Shown here: in pieces, positions 25,383 through 25,969 of the stretch
How positions within the stretch are numbered: the stretch's first letter is position 1
How the letters are laid out: every line of letters starts with the position of its first letter
Assembly: GCA_003003615.1 (NCBI GenBank)
Contig: PVWD01000002.1
Location: 1-64,000 of the forward strand
Length of the DNA stretch: 64,000 nucleotides
Direction: 5' to 3'
Source: a filamentous cyanobacterium CCP2
GTDB lineage: Bacteria; Cyanobacteriota; Cyanobacteriia; Elainellales; Elainellaceae
Made by a program: the position numbers and the translations under genes
The notes under the pieces: generated by a model
Told to the model about the DNA's origin: nothing
Databases searched by the model: none
The model's input: the letters and a program-made list of their open reading frames with translations, nothing else

Positions 25383-25499
25383 AAAGGCGAAGTTTTCCGT
25401 CTGTATGGGCAAGGAAAAAGCACGATCGCAAATTTCCATAAAAAGTATCTGGATATGCTTGATATTTCTCAGGCGTATCCTTTATGCTGTTGCGATGCT

Positions 25500-25768
25500 G
25501 GTTTTTTCTCGGAAAGAGCCAGTGAACCCAAAAACCGGCTTAAGGTGAGGTGTAACGCTGATTAGGGAAGCTAGCAACAACCCTAACCAGCTAACCTGAC
25601 TCTCTGAACGCAGCAGAGAGCTAGGCTGTGCTGATTTTAGATCATGGTATCTAAAATGAGTCGCCTCGCTGATGCAACACGAAGTCTGGGGTTGTTTTTC
25701 AAGATTTTTTTGGAAGAACCCCCACACCTTAAGCCTTTCTTCCCCCATTCATCAGCGAGGAACTAAAT
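25500..25768 (+). promoter_or_regulatory. Highly structured leader with the ribosome binding site in a stem
   Basis: Read by hand: (1) TTAGGG 25562-25567 / CCCTAA 25581-25586; (2) CTCTCTG 25600-25606 / CAGAGAG 25614-25620; (3) ATTTTAGAT 25634-25642 / ATCTAAAAT 25649-25657; (4) GGCTTAAGGTG 25537-25547 / CACCTTAAGCC 25725-25735; (5) CCTCGCTGATG 25664-25674 / CATCAGCGAGG 25750-25760. All are perfect. Stem 5 contains GAGG, the ribosome binding site of the gene starting at 25769. Stems 4 and 5 cross each other, so they form a pseudoknot or exclude one another. It matches no riboswitch class I know. Confidence 0.55.
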
Positions 25769-25969
25769 ATGTCTTCAGAGTTCAACGAACTGCTGCCCGT
25801 CACATCGGATGAACGGGTGCAAGTTTGGATTATCGGTACCCGCGATCAGGTGATTCATTTAATGAATGAGATTTACGTCCGCAAAGTGGCAACCGATCGA
25901 GTCCAGTTTACCCCCATCATCCCCGCTCCCTTTGCCACAGGGAAATACATGACCGTTCTCGTGCGGTAA
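25769..25969 (+). CDS. Conserved small hypothetical protein (66 aa)
   Basis: It has the core VWIIGTRDQVIHLMNEIYVRKVA and ends GKYMTVLVR, without a signal peptide or transmembrane helix. The start is set by GAGGA 7 nt upstream, which lies in the leader's last stem. The regular alpha/beta-like pattern suggests a folded small protein. I cannot name a family. It is followed by a dispersed repeat copy and the convergent ftsH. Confidence 0.65.
   Translation: MSSEFNELLPVTSDERVQVWIIGTRDQVIHLMNEIYVRKVATDRVQFTPIIPAPFATGKYMTVLVR

Follow-up and report, generated by a model that had tools for sequence, protein, structure and literature searches.

The 64,000-nucleotide stretch analysed here (the window; positions 1 to 64,000 of contig PVWD01000002.1 of the filamentous cyanobacterium CCP2) carries a unit of about 530 bp consisting of a promoter-like element, a structured RNA leader and an open reading frame (ORF) for a protein of 66 amino acids (aa). 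Comparison of its copies suggests that it is a mobile, multi-copy expression unit, and we propose, with a probability of roughly 0.55, that control of its leader combines a pseudoknot over the ribosome-binding site (RBS) with a cis-encoded antisense RNA acting through copy-specific kissing loops. An initial annotation of this DNA had described five inverted repeats upstream of a small gene, including two crossing 11-bp pairs (P1 and P2 below), all of which were found in place. It had treated them as a single leader, whereas the leader belongs to a multi-copy unit starting at the promoter (25440); this start, the multi-copy nature and the two hypervariable loops had been missed. The features of the window copy are as follows (strand in brackets).

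25440-25969 (+): whole dispersed unit (promoter, structured leader and 66-aa ORF), about 530 bp, its 3′ end being the stop of the ORF
25459-25488 (+): sense promoter-like element as read from the sequence, TTGATA (25459-25464), 18-nt spacer, TATGCT (25483-25488)
25537-25547 (+): 5′ arm of P1, GGCTTAAGGTG
25557-25591 (+): hairpin A (arms 25557-25567 and 25581-25591), 11-bp stem with a single A.C mismatch
25571-25577 (+): hypervariable loop A, CTAGCAA in the window copy
25595-25625 (+): hairpin B (arms 25595-25606 and 25614-25625)
25607-25613 (+): hypervariable loop B, AACGCAG in the window copy
25631-25660 (+): hairpin C (arms 25631-25642 and 25649-25660), of varying length
25664-25674 (+): 5′ arm of P2, CCTCGCTGATG
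25688-25722 (+): hairpin D, GGGGTT/AACCCC in the window copy and GTGGTT/AACCAC in relatives
25725-25735 (+): 3′ arm of P1, CACCTTAAGCC
25750-25760 (+): 3′ arm of P2, CATCAGCGAGG, with the Shine-Dalgarno sequence GAGG (25757-25760) inside
25769-25969 (+): 66-aa ORF (MSSEFNELLP...VLVR)
25634-25639 (-): antisense -10-like box TAAAAT, 8 nt from the base of hairpin B
25500-25627 (-): predicted antisense RNA with the complements of hairpins B and A; start at about 25627 predicted from the -10 position, 3′ end uncertain

Leader RNA structure and the 66-aa protein

Pairing and compensatory changes were counted in an alignment of 73 distinct homologous leaders from 16 genomes. The helix arms follow each other in the order P1-5′, P2-5′, P1-3′ and P2-3′, and the two helices thus cross as in an H-type pseudoknot. 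The minimum free energy of the leader was -95.0 kcal/mol as compared with -78.2 ± 4.9 kcal/mol in dinucleotide shuffles (z -3.4; 0/100), a value to be read with the limit that the folding program cannot draw P2 alongside P1, because these helices cross. Within the named structure 93.6% of the alignment cells were paired, and changes on both sides were detected in 20 of the 43 pairs, a number equalled in none of 500 shuffles; the covariation score was 0.215 against 0.130 in shuffles (0/500), and pairing was only 18-45% when the partners were slid by 1-3 columns. The covariance analysis proposed in the initial annotation thus turned out in favour of the structure. For the individual helices, the level of pairing was 99.3% for P1 (4 of 10 pairs compensatory), 91.2% for P2 (6 of 12), 95.5% for hairpin A (5 of 8 counted pairs), 93.3% for hairpin C over 5 shared pairs and 84.9% for hairpin D; columns 159/268 of P2, for example, are A-U in 38 leaders and G-C in 33. 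The wobble cells of the helices were 221 G.T versus 38 A.C, indicating that the sense-strand RNA is the molecule under selection. On these comparative counts, which exclude chance, the leader is a real conserved RNA structure.

Since P1 and P2 are kept in the same sequences, they are best described as one H-type pseudoknot and not as two exclusive states; of the former suggestion "pseudoknot or switch", the pseudoknot stands and the alternating states are dropped. The GAGG sits within the 3′ arm of P2, 8 nt 5′ of the ATG at 25769, and on the pairing counts given above P2 is the helix that masks the Shine-Dalgarno sequence of the conserved 66-aa protein, in agreement with the earlier claim of a leader hiding the RBS of a small gene. 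Three leaders (L038, L039 and L041; G000:C524, C122 and C274) carry a related insertion of about 110 nt between the 5′ arm of P2 and the 3′ arm of P1, which enlarges the loop and leaves P1 and P2 intact, and L040 (G000:C429) is a broken unit, its leader lacking the ORF and any recognisable 3′ arm of P1 or P2.

The Rfam search returned a tRNA as the sole match for the whole window at the gathering threshold, no plausible family for the leader at E<10, and zero matches for 13 other copies at E<1 and for the integrase-linked loci (see below) at the gathering threshold. Assignment to a known Rfam class (riboswitch, HEARO, group II intron and others) was rejected for want of a covariance-model match, and the earlier statement that no riboswitch class has this layout agrees with these searches.

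The 66-aa ORF is under purifying selection as judged from sequence comparison, the mean dN/dS being 0.08 among 11 copies of its own genome and 0.06-0.22 in other genomes. The protein looks soluble, its sequence showing no apparent membrane segment, and conservation extends along its whole length. No family was found for it in Pfam, NCBIfam or PHROGs, no match to the window ORF among the PLSDB plasmids, and no relative of solved structure by sequence search. The predicted fold is beta-alpha-beta-beta with moderate confidence (pLDDT 75.6), and the best fold matches in PDB, S10/NusE and S6, were at E >= 0.5, which is neither significant nor usable. Distant single-copy small-protein relatives with the signature WSPLLPxPNPGEVMSIL occur on a plasmid of Nostoc sp. 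TCL26-01 (L287) and on other Nostocales plasmids, one of them about 420 bp upstream of a XerC/D-like recombinase gene.

Hypervariable loops and an opposite-strand promoter-like signal

Near-identical copies of the unit within two genomes, G002 and G015 (Kaiparowitsia), differ chiefly at the tips of hairpins A and B. Among G015 copies with a fourfold-site difference of 7%, loop A is 63% and loop B 65% different, the rest of the leader being 4% different; in G002, at the same 7% of fourfold difference, the values are 33% for loop A, 47% for loop B and 1% for the rest. As the loops diverge at roughly five to nine times the near-neutral (fourfold) rate, neutral drift of unconstrained tips is no explanation. 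The 73 leaders contain 52 distinct loop A and 63 distinct extracted loop B sequences, the latter of 5-8 nt, mostly 7, and both loops are shared in only 4 of 220 within-genome pairs. Loop A takes the form C..AA or its reverse complement TT..G, and the exact reverse complement is also present for 12 of the 52 loop A sequences and for none of the loop B sequences; the two forms of loop A may represent two faces of one kissing pair. The predicted loop-loop energies were -12 to -18 kcal/mol for self pairs versus -1.5 to -7.4 kcal/mol with other copies. Stem-loops with kept stems and varying loops, as found in this alignment, would be those of an antisense-controlled leader.

On the opposite strand, a -10-like box points into hairpin B, and a transcript predicted from it would cross B and then A. 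The aligned minus-strand hexamer agrees with TATAAT at 4 or more of the 6 positions in all 73 leaders and at 5 in 61 of them, the background rate for a 5/6 match being 0.5%. It is located 8 ± 1 nt from hairpin B and is the top position of the leader when both strands are considered; the form of the box varies (TAAAAT, TACAAT, GATAAT, TAAGAT) while its match to the consensus is kept. By a generic scan, 49 of 90 copies had their best minus-strand -10 at a single common position. A good -35 at 17 nt was identified in G015 and G018, which represent two genera (TTGTCA-17-GATAAT and TTAACA-17-TAAAAT), and is weak elsewhere. The transcript predicted for the window copy would start at about 25627 on the minus strand, where hairpin B has its foot, and its predicted fold contains two hairpins complementary to B and A.

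The same layout was found for a second family of small proteins, encoded by an ORF of 82 aa for which Pfam holds no family; near-complete copies of it number at least 16 in the window's own genome and 9 in G002. The leaders of this family share the hairpin GACTA[N7]TAGTC, the 7-nt loop of which is hypervariable, and a minus-strand TATCAT, TATAAT or GATAAT stands beside this hairpin in 22 of 22 copies. This repetition provides the strongest argument for the loop and the antisense -10 as a functional module. In two G002 copies (L310, L311), the 82-aa protein is encoded under hairpins of the 66-aa type. The 82-aa loci include G000:C53, C357, C447, C274:75762-76004 and others (L171, L172, L292-L311), and one copy is arranged tail-to-tail with a 66-aa unit on the window's own contig.

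In the control that we propose, the conserved sense promoter, of which the element CGCTTGTGT...TATGCT is kept across copies and genera, would direct synthesis of a leader of about 270 nt, in which P1 encloses hairpins A, B and C, and P2 covers the Shine-Dalgarno sequence. From the -10-like box and the loops we infer a counter-transcribed antisense RNA, the loops of which would be complementary to those of its own mRNA and would meet the nascent leader by loop-loop kissing. The sign of this control and the role of the 66-aa protein are inferred likewise; the net effect would most likely be repression of the ORF, either directly or because the leader is held in the form with closed P2, and P2 would add a cis block on the Shine-Dalgarno sequence. 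The arrangement suggests that each copy makes a private, self-controlling antisense RNA: with copy-specific loops, each antisense RNA would recognise only its own mRNA, dozens of copies could coexist without mutual silencing, and the loop diversity would be accounted for by selection on new copies against cross-talk. Kissing-loop control would explain most of the features described above, that is, the fixed stems with free loops, the loop size of about 7 nt, the antisense start at the foot of a hairpin, the loop differences between copies and the tolerance of either orientation of loop A, because a sense C..AA would meet an antisense TT..G and vice versa.

Several observations weigh against this proposal. 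The whole-promoter scan gave a barely higher score for the minus strand than for shuffled sequences (6.74 versus 6.48), the positions being nevertheless clustered; the window copy carries the -10 alone, without a good antisense -35; the -10 box lies partly within hairpin C, and RNA structure could conserve some of it; an antisense terminator was not identified; and some G002 copies have identical loop pairs, though they look like recent duplicates.

The next best explanation, to which we would give perhaps one chance in five, is a cis-acting translational autoregulator or riboswitch, in which P2 would be opened or closed on binding of the pseudoknotted leader by either a small ligand or the 66-aa protein itself; the antisense -10 would then be incidental and the loops exposed, unconstrained tips. 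The Shine-Dalgarno sequence is indeed under P2 in most copies, and the predicted beta-alpha-beta-beta fold has the size of a small RNA-binding protein, with S10/NusE and S6 among its top, non-significant matches. However, a divergence about five to nine times that of fourfold sites is not expected of unconstrained tips, and the -10-like box, present at a constant position in 73 of 73 leaders, is left unexplained; in addition, there was no riboswitch among the Rfam matches, and the structure match was at E >= 0.5. A ligand riboswitch is thus not the best frame for the leader, the strongest additional signal being the two copy-specific loops facing the antisense -10 box.

Dispersal of the units and association with integrases

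When the leader was used as query, 15 pieces of the window's own genome matched, and copies were also found in many relatives. For the 66-aa ORF, 13 matches were obtained in its own genome, 14 in G002, 22 in G015, 41 in G022 and 63 in G030. Altogether 24 of 390 sampled genomes of the class, which are representatives and partly drafts, match at E <= 1e-5, 22 of them belonging to the family of the window's genome and the other two to a second family (one of these being a distant match only); among the named carriers are Elainella saxicola, Kaiparowitsia implicata, Pegethrix bostrychoides and Drouetiella hepatica. The ends of the unit were drawn from the comparison of copies: similarity begins at about 25440 and ends at about 25968/25969 in most aligned copies, with unrelated flanks, and in 38 Elainella copies conservation is zero immediately past the stop codon. 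In G002, which consists of one 5.8-Mb contig, the copies are scattered singly along the chromosome, and the alanine-dehydrogenase/lysozyme-like gene order of the window site is retained without the unit; the unit is present in 0 of 11 orthologous loci of relatives. A nucleotide-level search for empty sites, with joined G018 flanks against G027 and G309, gave an unrelated repeat as the sole match. Our literature searches did not turn up any account of these units.

At the right end, most ORFs of Kaiparowitsia (L072-L074, L080, L085, L151-L157, L160) run a few codons into the flank and take their stop from the flanking DNA, giving C-terminal tails of varying length; most of these right ends read GTGCGATCGC, a HIP1-like octamer. 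The right flanks of six G018 copies (L050, L052, L053, L060, L086, L094) share a terminator-like hairpin, GGGGCTAC...GTAGCCCC, beyond which lie tandem ACAATGCGATTGT-type palindromes. Palindromic repeats of the GGGCATCTTGCCCGCC type often abut the unit ends in the window's genome; the window itself has 6 matches (11080, 20841, 21999, 25994, 46049 and 47210) versus 0.66 expected.

Genes or remnants for a TIGR02249 integron integrase are located directly upstream, on the same strand, of 17 of 136 units in six genomes (6/14 in G002, 3/9 in G009, 3/22 in G015, 2/63 in G030, 2/9 in G011 and 1/19 in G035), an adjacency that is our own reading of the search matches and for which simple density predicts well under one. 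The integrase gene upstream of the unit is intact or internally deleted at L165, L166, L167, L169 and L342-L346. Two intact integrase genes of the window's own genome (C53, C357) are adjoined by the 82-aa ORF on the opposite strand. In G002, a block of about 1.3 kb, consisting of an integrase remnant plus the unit, is repeated at several places with 88-99% identity and begins at CTAAC in differing contexts, a start that resembles the integron core site, which is suggestive only. The spread of the units probably involves the adjoining integron-type integrase. In Treponema, an integron is known in which intI reads toward attI (PMC3607928), and the present arrangement, in which several genomes have the integrase directly upstream of the unit and in the same direction, is similar to such atypical chromosomal integrons; in contrast to their cassette arrays, the units here are single and dispersed, each with its own promoter.

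These observations bear on the view that the unit is an unregulated, selfish dispersed repeat: a gene family would have been spread by recombination, leader conservation would reflect this recent spread, and the loops would have been scrambled by hairpin-tip mutation or template switching. The unrelated flanks, many truncated copies, integrase remnants and loop A inversions would fit this view, but compensatory changes across 16 genomes and dN/dS of about 0.05-0.22 indicate selection on both RNA and protein, and the layout is kept by two separate protein families; we consider it improbable. The remnant of a miniature inverted-repeat transposable element (MITE), which had been named as the main alternative, holds true as far as a dispersed repeat with unrelated flanks is concerned, but a non-coding remnant placed by chance does not agree with an intact unit, a covarying RNA and an ORF under purifying selection: the dN/dS of 0.08 and the compensatory changes show coding and a selected function.

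An RNA guide appears slightly less probable still. In such a ribonucleoprotein, the two loops would recognise target DNA or RNA, as do EBS1/EBS2 of group II introns or bridge RNAs, and direct, for example, integrase insertion. The fixed scaffold, the constant protein, the two variable loops of guide size and the integrase adjoining many copies are in its favour. Against it, comparison of each loop with the DNA flanking its copy gave no match, whether by longest match or at a fixed offset and with both strands considered, which also led us to reject a transposase bridge RNA, and loop A is found in both orientations. Comparison with tRNA anticodon loops gave no consistent match: one of 6 tests deviated (loop A, z 3.5 versus a plain letter shuffle), as explained by the shared CAA/TTG ends. 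The loops likewise have no match in the rest of the unit, nor loop A in loop B.

Comparison with known RNA-controlled systems

The leaders of preQ1-I, SAM-II and S15 mRNA sequester the Shine-Dalgarno sequence by a pseudoknot, a property shared by the RNA described here, which is much larger, multi-hairpin and without match to their Rfam families. HEARO combines a structured RNA with an ORF in many dispersed cyanobacterial copies; the HEARO ORF is an HNH/IscB nuclease, whereas the ORFs here are of 66 or 82 aa and without Rfam match.

Type I toxins are small hydrophobic peptides. A type I toxin-antitoxin module, with the ORF as a toxin silenced by antisense RNA and the loop diversity keeping modules independent, is the least likely of the readings considered, because the 66-aa protein is soluble-looking, conserved over its full length and without an apparent membrane segment, even though multi-copy small ORFs with a masked Shine-Dalgarno sequence would suit it. 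The cis-encoded antisense logic, the start of interaction by loop-loop contacts and the masked RBS are shared with hok/Sok and bsrG/SR4 (PMC6562991); the non-hydrophobic protein, the antisense promoter predicted inside the leader and the saturating loop diversity within one genome are different.

If antisense control by kissing loops is true, the units would constitute a new class of structured RNA with two uncharacterised small-protein families. They would offer a testable case of how multi-copy elements escape cross-silencing, and each genome would hold dozens of apparently orthogonal loop pairs, a natural library useful as a source of parts for cyanobacterial RNA control circuits; they may also tie cyanobacterial integron-type integrases to a mobile RNA-plus-protein unit. 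A more tentative extension, which we hold at rather less than even odds, is that cyanobacteria of this family carry, genome-wide, dozens of mutually orthogonal sense/antisense kissing pairs on integrase-linked mobile units of both small-protein families, the loops of which would be diversified, far above the neutral rate, by a dedicated or template-switch process including inversion; this would amount to a chromosomal, copy-by-copy counterpart of plasmid incompatibility.

The closest likeness is to the rep leaders of the I-complex plasmids (IncI/ColIb-P9, IncB/O, IncK), which combine a pseudoknot near the RBS, an antisense stem-loop and a short hypervariable specificity loop, and in which the loop bases of RNAI/SLI decide compatibility, pairing being started by kissing (PMC10724649). 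Unlike in the I-complex, the present units are chromosomal and dispersed, with two variable loops and an unrelated protein, the antisense RNA is predicted, and P2 does not use a variable loop. Control of a replication initiator of the I-complex type was rejected, the copies being chromosomal (G002) and the ORF without PLSDB match or known family. The loop of ColIb-P9, given as UUGGCG (PMC10724649), also occurs among the loop A variants of the units described here.
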